64,000 nt of DNA, taken from the NCBI RefSeq assembly GCF_000238775.2, contig NZ_AFEJ02000001.1, positions 434,001 to 498,000 of the forward strand, given 5' to 3'. The stretch comes from Acaryochloris sp. CCMEE 5410 (GTDB lineage Bacteria > Cyanobacteriota > Cyanobacteriia > Thermosynechococcales > Thermosynechococcaceae). The position numbers and the translations under genes are program-made. The notes beneath the pieces were generated by a model, which worked only from the letters and a program-made list of their open reading frames with translations, searched no databases and was not told where the DNA came from. Below are positions 4,935 to 45,903 of the stretch, piece after piece. Each line of letters opens with the position of its first letter. Positions within the stretch are counted from its first letter, which is position 1.

Positions 4935-7478
4935 TTAGGCTAGGAGTTGGTGAATTGTGACATTGAGTTGGTCCCCATCAATCGGCTTTTTAAGCATGGG
5001 CACTTGGTTGAGGGCTTTTGGAAGAGTGAATTTGGAGTTGTAGCCCGTCGTAAAGAGGAAAGGAATTTGTCGCTTTAAAAGTTCTTCTGCCACCACAAAA
5101 CTATTCTCATCCTTGAGATTGATGTCTAATATACCCAGAATGTATTTTTCTTGGTCCAAGTATTTAATGGCCTGCTTGACTCTGGGGGCTGTATCTATTT
5201 CTGAAAACCCCAAAGACTCCAGTAAATTTTCCATCTCTAGCGCAAGCAACATATTGTCTTCAACGATGAGGACATGACCTGTGTCGAGATCTGACTCTTC
5301 CTCTCTTGGAGAGGAGGGAAGGGAGGTAGAAGTGGCTTCAGGTTGATCTTCTTGGAGCAGGATGAGGTGATCAGGTAACCAGAAATTAACTTGGACACCT
5401 GATCTAGGAAAGCGGATTGTCGCTTCCCCTTCAAACTCAAACGGAATGGCTCGCTCGATTAACGTCCGTCCAAATCCTTTGCGTTTGGGAGGGAAGACGG
5501 TCGGTCCATCGGATTCCTGCCAATAGAAAGCAAGCCCACCATCCTGTTCCAGCCAATGGACTTCAAGCTGACCCTCAGAAACCGATAAGGCACCGTACTT
5601 GGCAGAGTTGGTAATCAATTCATGAATGACGAGGGCAAACATGGGCACAAAGTTGGCCTTTAGACCGACTTCTGGTCCAGAGAGACTGACTTGGCGTTCC
5701 GCTTCGGCTAGGTAGGGGCGAAGTTCGATGGTGAGCAGATTGTGGAGACTGGGCCATTCCAAACCATGACCGGCCACTAAATCATGGGCATATGCTAGGG
5801 CTGCAATTCGCCGATCTAGAAGTAAGGTGTATTCTTCAATGGAGGTGGTGGAGTGACGAGTTTGGCGAGAGATGGATCGGATTAGAGCCAAAATATTTTT
5901 GACCCGATGGTTGAGTTCAGCAATCAGAAGATCTTGTTGTCGCCGTTGTCTGAGCCACTCCTGTTGCTGAACTTCTCCTTGAGTAATGGCTAACTGCATT
6001 AACCCCGTGCGCAGTTCTAGGGCAACTTCTGCTTCTGCGTCTGACCAGGGTTGGCATTGACCGGCCACGGTTTCTCGGTATTCTGCAAAGGAAGACCGGG
6101 GGCGGAGTCGTGGACCGTCAGGTCCTTCAACAATATCTTTCTCGGGTGATCCAGCCCAACGAACTTCATAGATAATTTCATTGCGAAAGAAAATAACGAA
6201 GACCTCGTCGCTGGGAGAAATTCCGAGGCAGAGGGCACCAGCCGTTTTATCTAATTGAGAGGCATCAAAGTTGTCCAGTTGGGATAGGTTTTCCAGGGGT
6301 ACTAAATCCGGAGTAGGATTCGTTTGTATCTGGCGAACCAGCTCCATGATCAAGCCGTGGCTGGGCACGTCCCCATAGGTTTGTACATCTTGCTTTGCAA
6401 TGACCGCCAGGCCATGGGATGAGAGCATGGAACACAGTCGTTCTCCCAATGCTTGGACGGTTTGAGTAAAACTGCCTTGATTAGTTAGCGTTTTAACGAC
6501 TTGAGCAATGGCTGAGGTAGTTCGTTTTCGAGTATTAAACCGTTCTTCTTCCAGGACTTGCTGAAACTTGAGGGAAAAGAGCTGTCCAAATAGATCGCAG
6601 GTGGAACGGTAATCAGGGGACAGTAACTTGTCACTATTGTGATGAAAGGCAAAAAGGGCCCATAGTTGCCGACGGACGATGATGGCCACATTCATGGCGG
6701 ATTGAACGCCCATGTTGGCAAGATATTCCAGGTGAATGGGAGACACGGCTCGCACATGGGTGAGGGAAAGATCTAGGGGATCTGCAGTCGAATCAGCAGC
6801 AATGAGGTCTGCAGTTGGGGCATCAATATCTGCGATCGCACGAATAGGCATTCTTAGGGCAATCGAACGGACTTGTTGAGGAATATCCGAAGCCGGGTAT
6901 CTGAGGCCCAGGTAGGGTTCTAAATTATCCGTCAAGGCTTCAGCGACGACTTCCCCAGCCCCATCCGGTAGGAATTGATAAGCCATCACCCGATCAAATC
7001 CAGTTACCCGCTGCAGGTCTTTAACGGCCATTTCCAGTAAGGCAGAAGTGCTGGTTTCTTCTTGCAAGCGGGCTAGCAACATCCGGGCTTGGGTAAAGGC
7101 CGTTTGGTTATCGCGATCCTCCGAGGGAAGCGGCTCTAGTTCGATCAGAAAAGAAGAGCCGCTGCGATGGAGGCTGATATCGAGATGCTGTTGGTTCAAG
7201 GGATACTTCCCGACCCGATCGCGCTGGGATTCAATGGTGGGATGACCGCCAACATTCCTCAAGTTATGGATGACCTGTTCGGGTAAGAGAACGCTTAAGT
7301 CCTGGCCCAAAGCATCATCAGGGGCAACACCTAAGACATCACCAATATTGCTGGAAACATGGGTGATGGATTCAAGATGTTTATCGGTGGCAATCAGAGC
7401 CCCAAAAGATTGGATGCAACCCGGGATATGAATCGGTTCGCTATCACAATTGGAAATAGCTAGTTCTCTAATTTCCAT
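4935..7478 (-). CDS. Bacteriophytochrome-type photoreceptor with HWE kinase and fused receiver
   Basis: The domain order in this 847-residue protein is PAS (about 1-115), GAF (about 130-310), PHY (about 325-500), HWE-type histidine kinase (about 515-705) and receiver (about 735-847). Cys11 in NCDSEPIHIPG matches the N-terminal biliverdin-binding cysteine of BphPs. The GAF has PASDIP (Asp198) and the conserved His249, but no cysteine beside that His, where plant and Cph1-type proteins carry one. The PHY tongue PRxSF motif is at 460-464. The kinase has LNHRVKN (His524) and the receiver Asp is 785. It shares a likely operon with the receiver gene just downstream. Bilin binding is inferred. Confidence 0.92.
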   Translation of the reverse strand: MEIRELAISNCDSEPIHIPGCIQSFGALIATDKHLESITHVSSNIGDVLGVAPDDALGQDLSVLLPEQVIHNLRNVGGHPTIESQRDRVGKYPLNQQHLDISLHRSGSSFLIELEPLPSEDRDNQTAFTQARMLLARLQEETSTSALLEMAVKDLQRVTGFDRVMAYQFLPDGAGEVVAEALTDNLEPYLGLRYPASDIPQQVRSIALRMPIRAIADIDAPTADLIAADSTADPLDLSLTHVRAVSPIHLEYLANMGVQSAMNVAIIVRRQLWALFAFHHNSDKLLSPDYRSTCDLFGQLFSLKFQQVLEEERFNTRKRTTSAIAQVVKTLTNQGSFTQTVQALGERLCSMLSSHGLAVIAKQDVQTYGDVPSHGLIMELVRQIQTNPTPDLVPLENLSQLDNFDASQLDKTAGALCLGISPSDEVFVIFFRNEIIYEVRWAGSPEKDIVEGPDGPRLRPRSSFAEYRETVAGQCQPWSDAEAEVALELRTGLMQLAITQGEVQQQEWLRQRRQQDLLIAELNHRVKNILALIRSISRQTRHSTTSIEEYTLLLDRRIAALAYAHDLVAGHGLEWPSLHNLLTIELRPYLAEAERQVSLSGPEVGLKANFVPMFALVIHELITNSAKYGALSVSEGQLEVHWLEQDGGLAFYWQESDGPTVFPPKRKGFGRTLIERAIPFEFEGEATIRFPRSGVQVNFWLPDHLILLQEDQPEATSTSLPSSPREEESDLDTGHVLIVEDNMLLALEMENLLESLGFSEIDTAPRVKQAIKYLDQEKYILGILDINLKDENSFVVAEELLKRQIPFLFTTGYNSKFTLPKALNQVPMLKKPIDGDQLNVTIHQLLA

Positions 7479-39370: not shown

Positions 39371-41155
39371 TCAGGCTAATCTTCGAGGCCAGGTAAAGAA
39401 AAAAGCACTCCCACGATCGTCAGACTCAACCCAAACAGTTCCTCCCTGCTGCTCGACAATCTTTTTGATAATGGTTAATCCTAGGCCGGTTCCTTTAGCA
39501 TGATCGGCAGGAGCAAGAGTTTGAAAGATACCAAAGATGCGCTGGTGATTCTCTGGAGCAATGCCAGGACCATCATCAGCAACGGTGAACTGCAACTGCT
39601 CCCCCAAGTCCTGACATCGGATTTGGATACAACCATCGGGACGATCATGGTACTTGATGGCATTACTAATCAGGTTGGCAAAGACTTGCTTTAACAAGAG
39701 GGGTTGGGTTTCAATCTGAGGAACTGCGTCAGGAAGCACAACCTGAAACTCCGCTGGAGGGGTGAGGGAGTCGACCACCTCATGCAGTAACTGCAGAATA
39801 TCTACCTGGAGGATTTCGACCGTTTGCTTGCCCGCCCGTGAGTACTGGAGAACACCATTGATGAGCTCTTCCATCCGTAGAACACGGTGTTGGATCAGCC
39901 TTAACTGCTCTTGGTTTTCCTGGGGGAGCTGCTCTTGCAGATCTTCGACCAACCACTGCGATAGGTTAGAAATACCTCGTAGCGGTGCTTTAAGGTCGTG
40001 GGAGACAATGTAAGCAAACTCATCCAGCTCTTGGTTCCGTTGATTCAGCCGATGCAACGCTTGAGCCAGTTTTCGATTCGCTCGCCCCAATTCAGTGGCG
40101 CGCTCTTGTAATTGGCGATCAATCGCCTGTTGCTTTTTTAATCCAGCTCTTAGACTCGTAACCAGTTCAGCTTGCTGGATAGCAATTGCCCCCTGCACCG
40201 CCAGCTCATCCATCAAAGTCAACTCTTCTGGCTGCCAGTCATGGGCCGTCTGACAATGGTGTGCAATCAGCAGTCCCCATAATTTGGGTTCATCCGTGGT
40301 GACGCTGTGGCTAATGATCGGGACCACCAAGTTGGCCTTCACCTGAAACTGCTGCAACATCCGTAGATGGCAGTCAGATAGTCCAGCCGTGGTAATGTCA
40401 GCAACCACCATTCTATGTCCCTGAATATACTTGTGGGCCTGATAACTTTGCTCCCCCTGAAAGCAGTTGTCTTCTAAGGTGAGTCCCATCACTGAGGTCC
40501 ATGTTGGTAGAACCGATTCAGCAACGACTATGCCACTCATGTTGATTTCAAACTGATAAATCAGGGTGCGATCGCACCCTAGCAACTGCCGTGTTCCTGC
40601 TGTAATCACCTGTAAAATCTGGTCCAGTTCTGATGCTCGATTGATTTGTAGAGCCACTTCTGTGAGGAGAGACCGCTGCTGCTGGTACTGCTCAAGCGCT
40701 GTCCTAAGCCGATGCTCGGTCAACACATTGCCTACGGTCTGGAGCAAGTTAGCGGGTGTCAACTGTCCTTTGATTAAATAATCCTTTGCGCCTGCCTTCA
40801 TGGCTGCAACCGCAACTTCCTCGCTGCCTTGGCCCGTCAACATAATCACTGGAGGACAGATTTTTAATTGTGCCGTTAGCTCTGCCATCAACTCCAACCC
40901 ATTCATATCGGGAAGGTTATAATCCAGCAGAATGAGATCAGGAACCTGGCTATGGCAAGCCACTAATGCCGCTTCTCCACAGTCATATTCTTCGATTTTT
41001 CCGACCGATCCCAAAGACCGACAATAGGTGAATCGATCGGTCTCCGAGTCGTCCACAATCAAAATTAACTGTGCTGGCAGACCAGTCGCGACAGAGTGGG
41101 CATTAGGATCTGGAACAATATTCATTACTGAGAAGTGGGTTGACATCTTATTCAA
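39371..41155 (-). CDS. Receiver-GAF (DXCF cyanobacteriochrome)-histidine kinase
   Basis: The order in 594 residues is receiver (about 28-145, Asp78 in LILLDYN), GAF (about 165-335), coiled coil, HisKA (His386 in FAYIVSHDLKAPLRG) and HATPase (about 475-590, with NAIKYH, DDGPGIAPE, GTGLGLTI). The GAF has the canonical CBCR cysteine Cys262 in SDCHLRML and a second Cys231 in the DNCF tetrapeptide at 229-232, matching the DXCF motif of dual-cysteine CBCRs. The following FQVKANLVVPI is also CBCR-like. It is therefore probably a bilin-binding photoreceptor of the blue-sensing dual-Cys type. It is next to a BphP-type gene. Confidence 0.87.
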   Translation of the reverse strand: MNKMSTHFSVMNIVPDPNAHSVATGLPAQLILIVDDSETDRFTYCRSLGSVGKIEEYDCGEAALVACHSQVPDLILLDYNLPDMNGLELMAELTAQLKICPPVIMLTGQGSEEVAVAAMKAGAKDYLIKGQLTPANLLQTVGNVLTEHRLRTALEQYQQQRSLLTEVALQINRASELDQILQVITAGTRQLLGCDRTLIYQFEINMSGIVVAESVLPTWTSVMGLTLEDNCFQGEQSYQAHKYIQGHRMVVADITTAGLSDCHLRMLQQFQVKANLVVPIISHSVTTDEPKLWGLLIAHHCQTAHDWQPEELTLMDELAVQGAIAIQQAELVTSLRAGLKKQQAIDRQLQERATELGRANRKLAQALHRLNQRNQELDEFAYIVSHDLKAPLRGISNLSQWLVEDLQEQLPQENQEQLRLIQHRVLRMEELINGVLQYSRAGKQTVEILQVDILQLLHEVVDSLTPPAEFQVVLPDAVPQIETQPLLLKQVFANLISNAIKYHDRPDGCIQIRCQDLGEQLQFTVADDGPGIAPENHQRIFGIFQTLAPADHAKGTGLGLTIIKKIVEQQGGTVWVESDDRGSAFFFTWPRRLA

Positions 41156-41246
41156 GGGATCGCTAAACTCTTGTCAAGATGAGAGATCGCCGTGTTGCTG
41201 TATAGGAACGCTGACAATCTGCCACGTATGTATTGATATGTGTTGA

Positions 41247-41684
41247 TTAGTTAGACGAGGGAAGCACCGTCGCCTGAAACCAAAATTCTAAAAACTGGTG
41301 CATTGTGGCTCTAAACTGATTTGGGTTAAATGATTTCAGTAGGTAGCCGCTGACGCCAGCATAATAACAAGTATAGACATCCTCTGGATTGGAGGAGGTG
41401 GTGAGAACCACAACGGGAATGACCTTTAACCGATCATCTTGCTTAAGTTCTGCAAGCACTTCCCGCCCATCGGTACCAGGCAGGTTGAGATCCAGTAGCA
41501 CCAAGTCTGGCAAAGGATGATCCTCGGGTGACATTAGATAGTCAAGAGCATCCTCCCCATCCACGCAGCGAGCAATCGATAGATCAAAGCGGTCAACTTC
41601 GCGAATAATGCGGCTGAAGATTTCATAGTCCTCATCACTATCTTCGACCACCAAGAGAGTGTGAGATAAAGTGGGGTCATCCAT
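41247..41684 (-). CDS. Rcp1-like response regulator
   Basis: The 145-residue receiver begins MDDPTLSHTLLVVEDSDED. Phosphoacceptor Asp65 lies in LVLLDLNLPGTDGRE, the switch is VVVLTTSS, and the conserved Lys position reads YLLKSF. It ends with FLEFWFQATVLP, typical of Rcp1 partners of cyanobacterial phytochromes. It starts 3 bp after the phytochrome-type kinase gene upstream, on the same strand. The pair is therefore a canonical kinase-regulator operon. Confidence 0.92.
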   Translation of the reverse strand: MDDPTLSHTLLVVEDSDEDYEIFSRIIREVDRFDLSIARCVDGEDALDYLMSPEDHPLPDLVLLDLNLPGTDGREVLAELKQDDRLKVIPVVVLTTSSNPEDVYTCYYAGVSGYLLKSFNPNQFRATMHQFLEFWFQATVLPSSN

Positions 41685-41687
41685 ACC

Positions 41688-44033
41688 CTATTGCCCCAAG
41701 TAGAAGTAGAACGTGCTGCCTTCCCGGGGGACAGACTGAATCGCAATACGGCCCCCATGGCGCTCCACAATTTTCTTGACGATGGTGAGACCGGCTCCTG
41801 TGCCGCCACCATAGCGATTGGGAGCATGAAGGCGCTTGAAAATCTTAAACACGTTCTCTAATTGTCGTTCACGAATACCAATTCCATTATCCCTTACATA
41901 CAGAACCATTTGATCGGTATCGAGCGTCTCAGGCAAAATTGAGCGATCTTCGTCGGGGGTAATGTAGCCAATTTCAATCCATTTATGGGGCTTGTTGTTG
42001 TACTTAATGGCATTGCTAATTAAATTGGTGAACACCTCTGTAACCCGGATGCGATCGCAGGCCAAGGTCGGCAACGATCGGGGAATCCTAAATTCCACAG
42101 ATTCCGGCTGACTCATTTGAATCACGCCGAGGACCTCCGCCAGGACTGCGCTCAGATCCGTATCGTAAATCGCGAGGTCTGCGCGTCCCAACCGAGAATA
42201 GTGCAACAGCGAACTAATCAAATCCTCCATGCGCTGGGTAAGGCGCATCAGGGTTTCCAGTTTGTGCTGACCCTCTGCATCTAGTTGCTCCCCATAATCT
42301 TCAATCAAAAAGCTCGAATAGTTGTGAATGCCCCGCAGCGGTTCTTTAAGATCATGGGAAGCAATATAGGCAAAGGCGTCGAGTTCGCTGTTGCTGCGCT
42401 GCAAATCAGCATTGAGCATCGCCAGCTCATCCACCTTCTTCAGCACAATACCAATAATGGCACCACGAAGCTCTAGGACGGCTTCTTTGGCCAGATCGCT
42501 CCAGGGAAGCGATTTCCTCCGAACCGTCTCTTGCCAGCGTTCAAAGGACTGTCTCGGTGTCAAATAAGGTAAACCCTCGGCATCAACCCCTTGCTGCTGC
42601 TTGGGTTCGCCTCCCCAATTTACCGTCTGTACCACCTCCGGTTTAAACCACAGCAGATGGATATTCTGGGCAGGAGAGATTTGCAGGGCTAACAATCCAC
42701 TAGCAACAACTTGATGGTCGGCCAGAGCAGGATACACTTTCCCCAGTTGATCGGTACTGTAGAGTAGAGCGGGGGGAGTAAGCTGTTGGCTCACCCAGTG
42801 GATTAAAGGGGCAATTGTCGGTTCCGGGGGAGTCTGTCCAAAAGCAATCAACTGTTCGCCTTCGCAGAACACTAAACCTGAGGCATCGGCCAGCACCATC
42901 AAGTCGATAGGATGATGACTGATGGCGGCCAACAGCGACTGGTAGCGACTACTGGATTGCACAAAATTGGCCTGAATCGACTGTAGTCTCACCCGCTCCA
43001 CCAAACGTTGCTTGTCCAATTTTGTGAGCAGCTCCATGGAGACGGCCTGTCCAACAAATTCACAAACTGTGCGCAGTGGGTAGGATAGGGGCTTTGGGAC
43101 ATAGTGATGGCAAGCAATTAGGCCCCAAAGCTGCTGATTGCACAGCAGCGAAATCGACAGAGACGCCCGCACCCCCATATTGTTCAGATATTCTGTATGC
43201 ATTGGCGAAACACTTCGCAGAACAGACAGGCTCATATCTAACGGGGCTTGGGTGACGGGGCTATGCAGCGGCTCCAGGGGAATCGGTTCATAGGTGGCAT
43301 CGGGAATCAGGCGCAGGCGATTGAGCCGATATAGCTGTTTGGCCTGTTTGGGAATATCAGTAGCTGGATAGTGCAGTCCGAGAAAAGGCTCTAGATCAGA
43401 TCGCCGATCCTCGGCAATCACATCGCCAGCACCGTCTGAATCAAACCGATAGACCATCACGCGGTCAAACCCCGTAATCTGACGAACTTCAGCCGCAGCC
43501 GTTTGACACAATTCCGTCAGAGTCTGAGCTTGCTGTAGGTGATTAATGGGGGCCTTGACCCATCGATAAAAATCAAAAAAATCGATGGGTTGGGGATTGT
43601 CTAGGGGTTCTAATTCCAGGACAATGACGGTCTCAGTCCGATGGGCCACTCCACCCATATCCCTGCCATTAACCCTCAGTTGGAGTGGATTAACCTGTTC
43701 AAAATCAGCTGCCAAGCATCCCCGAATCTGATCCAATTGATTGGGGGGGAGTAGCTTAGATAAAGGTTGACCCAATAGCGCCGCAGGAGGTTGTCCCAGT
43801 AGCTGAAGGGCATTCTGACTGATCTGCTGAATTACGAAATCGTCTTCAGTGCAGGTGATAAGAACCCCATGAGGCTGAATGGCGCTGGGGATATGGATGG
43901 GTTCGCGATCGCAGTTCGTCAACGACACATCCGATGGCACAAGATCAGGATCAGTGAGGATTGCGATTTCTGCTCTAACCTGCGTGTTTGGATCGGAAGA
44001 TTCAGGTGAAACCGATGATGTCATTGAAAACAA
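41688..44033 (-). CDS. Bacteriophytochrome-type histidine kinase
   Basis: The 781-residue protein has PAS (about 30-145), GAF (about 165-325), PHY (about 340-520), HisKA (FAYIASHDLKEPLRGI) and HATPase (NAIKYN, DNGIGI, GTGAGLTI). Cys41 in NCDREPIHIP is the BphP biliverdin site. The GAF has PATDIP (Asp226) and His279, without a cysteine before that His. A PRxSF tongue motif occurs in PHY (TPRQSF). It shares an operon with the Rcp1-like regulator and lies upstream of the CBCR gene on the same strand. Compared with the 4935-7478 protein it has a conventional HisKA core and no fused receiver. Confidence 0.93.
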   Translation of the reverse strand: MFSMTSSVSPESSDPNTQVRAEIAILTDPDLVPSDVSLTNCDREPIHIPSAIQPHGVLITCTEDDFVIQQISQNALQLLGQPPAALLGQPLSKLLPPNQLDQIRGCLAADFEQVNPLQLRVNGRDMGGVAHRTETVIVLELEPLDNPQPIDFFDFYRWVKAPINHLQQAQTLTELCQTAAAEVRQITGFDRVMVYRFDSDGAGDVIAEDRRSDLEPFLGLHYPATDIPKQAKQLYRLNRLRLIPDATYEPIPLEPLHSPVTQAPLDMSLSVLRSVSPMHTEYLNNMGVRASLSISLLCNQQLWGLIACHHYVPKPLSYPLRTVCEFVGQAVSMELLTKLDKQRLVERVRLQSIQANFVQSSSRYQSLLAAISHHPIDLMVLADASGLVFCEGEQLIAFGQTPPEPTIAPLIHWVSQQLTPPALLYSTDQLGKVYPALADHQVVASGLLALQISPAQNIHLLWFKPEVVQTVNWGGEPKQQQGVDAEGLPYLTPRQSFERWQETVRRKSLPWSDLAKEAVLELRGAIIGIVLKKVDELAMLNADLQRSNSELDAFAYIASHDLKEPLRGIHNYSSFLIEDYGEQLDAEGQHKLETLMRLTQRMEDLISSLLHYSRLGRADLAIYDTDLSAVLAEVLGVIQMSQPESVEFRIPRSLPTLACDRIRVTEVFTNLISNAIKYNNKPHKWIEIGYITPDEDRSILPETLDTDQMVLYVRDNGIGIRERQLENVFKIFKRLHAPNRYGGGTGAGLTIVKKIVERHGGRIAIQSVPREGSTFYFYLGQ

Positions 44034-44093: not shown

Positions 44094-44735
44094 CTAAGGA
44101 GTTGTTGCAGTGCGAGGTTGGCAATCGCAGATAAAACTACTCAAAACATCCTTAGCAGCTGCTAGAGGGCCTGTCCTTGCCGCTACGTCCTCGGCACTAC
44201 CCATCAAACTATCAATGGTTCCAGCCACATCCGCTAAACGGGCACCATCAACGTATAGCTGTTGAGTTGGATACCTTTGCAGAAATTCTAAAAACGAAAT
44301 CTGGTTATCATCACTGAGGGAAAGCAGAATGGCTGATCGGAGTGCTTGCAGATTGGCCTTTTTTTCGGGGGTGTGAATGACCTGACCTGCTTGGAACAGA
44401 GCATATTCTCCAGGCAATAGATGGAGGATTTTATCTGCTGTCCGCAAATCTACCTTAAGATCTTTGGTCATAAACTGGCGAGCGGTTTCGGGGTCTTGAC
44501 CCGATACCCTTAGAAAGAATTTAAGATTAGAAGACGCTTGACCAGTCTGAGCAAACGTTTCGAGTTCATCAACGGTCAGAGATTGTCCAAATTGATTGTA
44601 AGTAAAGACAACTTTCTCTGCAGCTCGAACGGGGGTAGGCATCAAACCTGCCACTGAGATTGAGGCAATGGCGCTGAAGGTGAGGCCGATCTGCCAACGC
44701 CTAATTTGTTGAAATAACGAATACCAAGTGGCCAT
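44094..44735 (-). CDS. DUF1400 domain protein, paralog 1
   Basis: The 213-residue protein has a signal peptide (LTFSAIASISVAGLMPTPVR, then AAEK). The mature part follows DUF1400: VVFTYNQFGQSLTVDELETF, a helical middle, and the closing FLEFLQRYPTQQLYVDG. It ends SFICDCQPRT. DUF1400 is a cyanobacterial domain, often upstream of alpha/beta hydrolases; none is attached here. It has a close relative just upstream, so the two arose by duplication. Confidence 0.82.
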   Translation of the reverse strand: MATWYSLFQQIRRWQIGLTFSAIASISVAGLMPTPVRAAEKVVFTYNQFGQSLTVDELETFAQTGQASSNLKFFLRVSGQDPETARQFMTKDLKVDLRTADKILHLLPGEYALFQAGQVIHTPEKKANLQALRSAILLSLSDDNQISFLEFLQRYPTQQLYVDGARLADVAGTIDSLMGSAEDVAARTGPLAAAKDVLSSFICDCQPRTATTP

Positions 44736-44839: not shown

Positions 44840-45604
44840 CTATGGAGTCGGCGTTGGATTAGAGGGTAATGGAGTGGGGAAGACGGGGGTTAATGCACGG
44901 GTAGTGTTTTGGGGTGCCTTGTTATTTCTGGACATCGTGGTAGCCGGAGCTTTGTCCTTGCAATTCTCTGCCACATTTTGAGGTTGATAGGAGGGATTGG
45001 CCGCTACATCGGCAGAGGATTGAGCTGTATTGCAATCGCAAATAAAATCCGACAGTACATCTTTGGCGACTTCCAGAGCGGGCAAAGTTTTTTCAACAAA
45101 GCTGCTGACCTGGTTGTAGGTCCCTTCTAAACTCGTTAGGTTCACCCGAATTGTATTTTGGGGATATTTGTCGATAATTTCCATAAAGGAGATTTGATCA
45201 TCCTCAATGGACTTGAGAACTGCTGTTCTCAGAGATTCCAGGCCATCTTCCGTTCTGCCAGATGCGCTAGCAATTGCCTGGTCAAGCTTGAAAAGCAAAA
45301 ATTCTCCGTTGGACCCTTCAATAAAATTTTGTAAGAAGGTGGGGACTGTAATTTGCTCAGAAAGAGCAGTGCGGACTACTTCTGGTAGTTCTGCGTCTGT
45401 CTCTAGTAACTTCTGCAAAGAAGTAGGTAACTCTCCGGTGCTCGTAAAGTTGTTTAATTCGCTACGGGTCACCGTGACTTCGGTGTCTTTGTAGCGAACA
45501 AAAATACTCTCAGCTGCTTGAACTCGGCTAGATAATAGGGAAGTGAAAATTGCTGTAATGCTAAAAAATCCAAAACTAAGGAGCGATTGGAGAGCTTTAT
45601 TCAT
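44840..45604 (-). CDS. DUF1400 domain protein, paralog 2
   Basis: ATG 45604 gives 254 residues and has a GGAG site upstream; a longer start at 45631 adds nine non-homologous residues. The signal peptide (FGFFSITAIFTSLLSSRVQA, then AE) leads to IFVRYKDTEVTVTRSELNNF. Later FMEIIDKYPQNTIRVNL and SDFICDCN align with paralog 1 at 44094. A Pro/Thr-rich tail (TPLPSNPTPTP) ends it. It is probably periplasmic or outer-surface; the function is unknown. Confidence 0.82.
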   Translation of the reverse strand: MNKALQSLLSFGFFSITAIFTSLLSSRVQAAESIFVRYKDTEVTVTRSELNNFTSTGELPTSLQKLLETDAELPEVVRTALSEQITVPTFLQNFIEGSNGEFLLFKLDQAIASASGRTEDGLESLRTAVLKSIEDDQISFMEIIDKYPQNTIRVNLTSLEGTYNQVSSFVEKTLPALEVAKDVLSDFICDCNTAQSSADVAANPSYQPQNVAENCKDKAPATTMSRNNKAPQNTTRALTPVFPTPLPSNPTPTP

Positions 45605-45903
45605 GGAATACTCCTCAAATACGATACACAACTAGTAGAGAGCAGTTGCATCACTGTTAACTGCTAAACATGCCCTTCATTAGGAAATATTGTGATTTAT
45701 GTTCGAAAAATTGCCATCTTCTCTAGGAGTAGGATATGGCATCCATCATTCTGTCTTTAGGAAGATGCCAGGCTAGGCATTCTATGTGTGACTAGCCATC
45801 AACAGATATATATCTTGGGGATGATGTGAATTCCGACTAAGCTTTTTACGCTAAGAACCATCCATTATTGACCTATTTGGTTTCTAGAAAACGAGTTAGA
45901 ATC

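Follow-up and report, generated by a model that had tools for sequence, protein, structure and literature searches.

The gene at 39371-41155 (minus strand) of the window, by which we mean the whole 64,000-nucleotide stretch of Acaryochloris sp. CCMEE 5410 DNA analysed here, is the usual third gene of a conserved operon that encodes a phytochrome, an RcpB-type regulator and a sensor kinase with a receiver domain (REC) in front. The GAF domain of this kinase is, judged from its sequence, a cyanobacteriochrome (CBCR) domain with DXCF-type dual cysteines. Our results suggest a dual-input sensor kinase, in which a bilin-binding GAF domain is combined with a receiver fed by the co-encoded CphB phytochrome, and we put the probability of this reading at about one half. 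It starts from what is observed directly: the domains, the alignment positions of the cysteines, the order of the genes, the retained active site of the REC and the kinship of a solved kinase, PPHK, to the operon family.

The kinase and its operon

A single uninterrupted frame of 594 codons spans the kinase gene in the ORF analysis. Residues are numbered from a TTG start at 41155, and an alternative ATG three codons downstream is possible. The features of the operon, and a second phytochrome gene elsewhere in the window, are as follows.

39371..41155, minus strand: kinase with the order REC-GAF-HisKA-HATPase, 594 aa, PPHK-like, third gene of the operon (ORF, Pfam, PDB match 6OAP, AlphaFold2 model)
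40736..41065, minus strand: receiver domain, residues 31-140 (Pfam Response_reg, whole-protein E 2.7e-21)
40922-40924, minus strand: phosphoacceptor Asp78 of the receiver, in a complete phosphorylation site with Asp35/Asp36, Thr107 and Lys129
40178..40630, minus strand: CBCR GAF domain, residues 176-326 (Pfam GAF 5e-18; TePixJ match E 1e-24)
40460..40471, minus strand: DXCF motif DNCF, residues 229-232 (aligned with DPCF of TePixJ and with DTCF/DPCF of the operon family)
40463-40465, minus strand: second cysteine, Cys231, in the DNCF motif
40370..40372, minus strand: Cys262, the predicted canonical cysteine for bilin attachment, with His263 next to it (aligns with its canonical counterparts in TePixJ and PPHK)
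39830..40027, minus strand: HisKA dimerisation/phosphoacceptor domain, residues 377-442 (Pfam 1.1e-11)
39998-40000, minus strand: His386, in the SHDLKAPLRG motif of HisKA
39383..39703, minus strand: HATPase_c kinase domain, residues 485-591 (Pfam 8.2e-27)
41247..41684, minus strand: RcpB-type single-domain response regulator, 145 aa (Pfam; best PDB match 1K66, RcpB, E 2.8e-37)
41688..44033, minus strand: CphB-type (biliverdin-type) phytochrome histidine kinase, 781 aa (Pfam PAS_2-GAF-PHY-HisKA-HATPase)
4935-7478, minus strand: second phytochrome, PAS_2-GAF-PHY-HWE kinase-REC, 847 aa

The operon phytochrome carries Cys41 in its PAS region, within LTNCDREPIHIP, and its GAF motif, SPMHTEYL, has no cysteine. 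The CphB type, as described in PMC4422448, uses biliverdin. Only three bases separate the phytochrome stop codon from the start of the regulator, and the kinase gene follows the regulator after about 90 bases; the operon scan found no terminator-like site in this second gap, and its promoter and terminator sites were no more frequent across the operon than in shuffles. The Calothrix CphB/RcpB system (RcpB structure 1K66) matches the two upstream genes of the window, a biliverdin-type phytochrome kinase and an RcpB-like regulator. An earlier note on this DNA had set the kinase beside a biliverdin-type phytochrome operon; the type of the phytochrome was correctly recognised, while the gene proves to be the usual third member of that operon and not its neighbour. 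The genome has genes for three heme oxygenases and for one Fe-dependent bilin reductase, and a supply of both biliverdin and phycocyanobilin is therefore plausible.

Upstream of the operon lies an adjacent pair of genes for DUF1400 proteins (44094-44735 and 44840-45631, minus strand), the first of which has a weak DNA match on a plasmid of Acaryochloris 'Moss Beach'. The first 27 bases of the second phytochrome gene show two mismatches to a primer published for the Acaryochloris marina gene AM1_5894; AM1_5894, 847 aa in length, is named as the phytochrome present in strain MBIC11017 (PMC4901347). A homologue of the second phytochrome occurs in one of six same-genus genomes (80%).

Cysteines and kinship of the GAF domain

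The GAF domain resembles known CBCRs (E 2.7e-28 for PPHK, 2.3e-25 for RcaE and 1.1e-24 for TePixJ), and its similarity in sequence to solved CBCRs is much greater than chance would give. The earlier note had claimed a canonical Cys262 together with a DNCF motif (Cys231) in a receiver-first kinase, and both cysteines are present within domains recognised by Pfam. In HMMER alignments, Cys262-His263 (SDCHLRML) pairs with TECH of TePixJ and DNCF pairs with DPCF; in MAFFT alignments of relatives, Cys231 falls in the column that holds a cysteine in most family members. These alignments place Cys231 at the DXCF position. The spacing of the cysteines, which had been likened to that of TePixJ, is a different matter: Cys231 and Cys262 are 31 residues apart, owing to a three-residue insertion that follows DNCF, and the corresponding distance is 28 in TePixJ and in most relatives. 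Two Chamaesiphon relatives, L158 (EDNCFQGDLSVHLHKY) and L159 (EENCFQGEHSHSIEKY), share the spacing of 31, and hence the insert is a trait of a small clade and not an error. These relatives are 57% (L158) and 53% (L159) identical to the window kinase, and DNCF or ENCF and the canonical cysteine are retained in all three. Spacing is outside the definition of the motif; a value of 31 weakens the analogy with TePixJ and leaves the DXCF assignment as it was.

In the GAF tree, the window domain forms a four-member clade (99/97) with L079 (G234) and the two Chamaesiphon proteins, nested in an eight-member clade (100/99) of which all but one member are operon third genes. TePixJ appears on a long branch of unsettled position outside the small clade, and by this tree the window GAF domain would not be close kin of TePixJ; PPHK falls in another branch of the family than the window domain. 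Five other aligned GAF domains of the same genome have both cysteines at a spacing of 28. DXCF pockets are common, elsewhere in this genome too, and the window GAF domain is ordinary in kind.

The best solved relative of the kinase is PPHK of Leptolyngbya JSC-1 (6OAP), with an E of 5.3e-64 over window residues 28-332. PPHK is said to have been solved as a kinase that responds to both phosphorylation and light. Like the window kinase, it has a REC followed by a CBCR GAF domain in a sensor kinase (6OAP, 6OAQ, 6OB8); the two are 41% identical over 309 columns, and the REC-GAF part of our AlphaFold2 model (mean pLDDT 84.5) superposes on 6OAQ with a Z of 28.7 and an rmsd of 3.7 over 297 residues. 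Unlike the window GAF domain, PPHK has a Tyr at the second-cysteine position (EDQYF). Its Pg state is green-absorbing, at 562 nm (PMC11480761), and crystals of its REC-GAF part were obtained with BeF3- as well as in light states, according to the titles of PDB entries 6OAQ and 6OB8. TePixJ (3VV4, 4GLQ, 4FOF), a DXCF blue/green CBCR, shares with the window domain the DXCF motif, the canonical Cys-His and the GAF fold (model on 4GLQ, Z 23.5, rmsd 1.9 over 149 residues) and differs in cysteine spacing and in its output, a chemotaxis receptor instead of a kinase. The remaining Foldseek matches, beyond PPHK and the CBCRs, were phytochrome GAF and histidine-kinase structures and added little. The arrangement of receiver, GAF and kinase had also been thought rare. 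It is not, since DXCF pockets are common and a REC-GAF kinase, PPHK, has already been solved; 6OAP and the compact proteins of this layout, about 550-660 aa long, in many genomes rule out that view.

The bilin pocket is likely of the blue/green type, and a blue-absorbing state of the window GAF domain is plausible. The function of the second cysteine varies among CBCRs, and isomerization in AM1_6305g1 is reported to need no second cysteine (PMC11284453). The three-residue insert beside Cys231 may disturb the chemistry of the second cysteine; the confidence of the AlphaFold model, which has no chromophore, is moderate near the insert (block means 79 and 69).

The third gene at 93 phytochrome loci

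We surveyed 93 distinct loci of CphB-type phytochromes, including a subset of 77 picked by phytochrome similarity alone. A co-oriented REC-first kinase comes next at 69 of the 93 loci and at 53 of the 77 in the subset, and the RcpB-type regulator adjoins the phytochrome on the same strand at 66 of the 69. Several of the other phytochrome loci are rearranged, broken or at a contig edge. The nearest relatives of the window phytochrome are followed by this regulator and, in most cases, by this third gene. The phytochrome tree groups the window phytochrome with those of G234 and Chamaesiphon (SH-aLRT 99) and concurs with the tree of third-gene GAF domains on the small clade to which the window genes belong. 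The nearest relatives of PPHK among the sequences compared (at most 66% identity) are almost all operon third genes. In the literature searched, from which subscription papers were mostly missing, we met with no account of a CphB/RcpB operon that has a conserved third gene for a REC-sensor kinase.

The receiver of these third genes is nearly constant, with a complete active site in 67 of 69; degenerate sites were seen only in L137 (2468-5998, minus strand) and L153 (1826-6259, minus strand). The sensor behind the receiver is variable. A GAF domain follows in 54 of the 69 third genes, with both cysteines in 34, the canonical one only in 7, the DXCF one only in 3 and neither in 10. The other 15 (L246, L247, L249, L250, L253-L258, L260, L261, L264, L157 and L194) have the REC first, in the same position, and no CBCR GAF domain; when six of these were scanned with Pfam, a PAS domain scored above the cut-off in five and below it in one. 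One close relative of the window kinase, L079 (G234; also L160; 8687-10486, minus strand), has lost both bilin cysteines (EDHAF, ANWH) and kept its REC and kinase motifs, and it is still third in the operon; it is probably a natural blind variant. The third genes of L123, L126, L133 and L150 have about 19 residues added directly after DPC (DPCLAENYLRFSRPES...), giving a spacing of 47 between the cysteines.

Two proposed inputs to one kinase

A constant receiver in front of a variable and sometimes cysteine-less sensor is what leads us to read these proteins as two-input kinases with a phytochrome-fed receiver. For the window kinase we infer bilin binding, ligation by the second cysteine, phosphotransfer from CphB to REC and an output, along the following lines. 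The GAF domain would bind phycocyanobilin via Cys262, possibly isomerised to phycoviolobilin, and Cys231 would probably add reversibly to C10 to give a violet- or blue-absorbing state beside a longer-wavelength state. Alongside RcpB, the N-terminal receiver would accept phosphoryl groups, for which the co-encoded biliverdin phytochrome kinase of CphB type is the likeliest donor. Both inputs would then converge on the coiled coil ahead of HisKA, and their combination would set the phosphorylation of RcpB or of another regulator. The third-gene place beside a far-red phytochrome points to a possible switching of one light sensor by another through phosphorylation, although gene linkage of a phytochrome and a kinase can reflect co-regulation only. 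A comparable role is known for DpxA, a teal/yellow CBCR of Fremyella diplosiphon, which has measured kinase activity and modulates chromatic acclimation beside a second photoreceptor (PMC4937213); its likeness to the window kinase is in role only.

Helix alpha-1 of the receiver was considered as proof that CphB is the donor. Its mean identity to RcpB is 0.32 in third genes and 0.13 in C-terminal RECs; however, a comparison of operon kinases (0.289) with non-operon REC-GAF kinases (0.257) shows that the latter resemble RcpB almost equally, and so the helix does not single out CphB. The likeness is only consistent with CphB as donor. REC-first kinases of the family with the same helix alpha-1 motif also exist outside the operon, and many relatives have C-terminal RECs as well, as would be expected if the window protein were an ordinary hybrid kinase, whose REC accepts from its own histidine kinase in an internal phosphorelay or feedback, while the phytochrome signals via RcpB only and the operon serves just for the joint expression of two light systems. 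We consider this unlikely, as the adjacency of such a kinase to CphB-RcpB recurs in many families (69 of 93 loci) and the REC is intact even in the cysteine-less L079. It is similarly doubtful that the GAF domain is a single-cysteine photosensor, green/red or green/teal and not blue/green, or is not photoactive at all, with the insert keeping Cys231 off C10. The spacing of 31 in place of 28 would fit such a domain, as would the loss in relatives of Cys1, of Cys2 or of both (PPHK has its Tyr at the Cys1 position) and the variable function of the second cysteine among CBCRs (PMC11284453); the window kinase, L158 and L159 have nevertheless retained both cysteines and their spacing, and more of the operon family's GAF domains have two cysteines than any other combination (34 of 54).

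The operon was likely gained as a block. A search of six same-genus genomes did not find it, an absence that is not certain because these are drafts of 82-92% completeness. No slice of equal length in the window is richer in GC than that from 39371 to 44033 (0.501 compared with 0.461 in the flanks, rank 1 of 119), and the nine-member phytochrome clade that holds the window phytochrome has no further member from its own family. A plasmid search gave short, weak matches only. The same absence, clade and base composition could point to a recent, strain-specific import that is perhaps not expressed or not wired to native targets. The incompleteness of the drafts weakens that argument, and all three frames are intact with their catalytic motifs present; this is, in our view, the least probable of the alternatives.

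What the earlier note observed is partly confirmed and its interpretation partly supported. Its suggestion that the cell pairs far-red with another colour in one gene neighbourhood is strengthened, because the operon is conserved. We would extend the dual-input reading tentatively, at somewhat less than even odds, to many cyanobacteria, which would carry a three-gene module for integrating light signals. A biliverdin phytochrome kinase would there phosphorylate the receiver of another sensor kinase, and the history of red and far-red light would thereby gate what a blue/green or PAS sensor passes to a regulator that both share. On this view PPHK would be such a third protein, with the phytochrome as its donor.

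The conserved operon of phytochrome, RcpB and REC-sensor kinase, and the place of PPHK within that family, are the part worth pursuing. If relatives of PPHK regularly share an operon with a phytochrome kinase and a regulator, then that phytochrome kinase is an obvious and testable candidate donor, and if the operon pattern is regular, it would amount to a rule for coupling two colour channels in cyanobacteria. Behind a receiver that hardly varies, the family supplies natural variants, with two, one or no cysteines or with a PAS domain where others have the GAF, and hence its logic can be tested by swaps.
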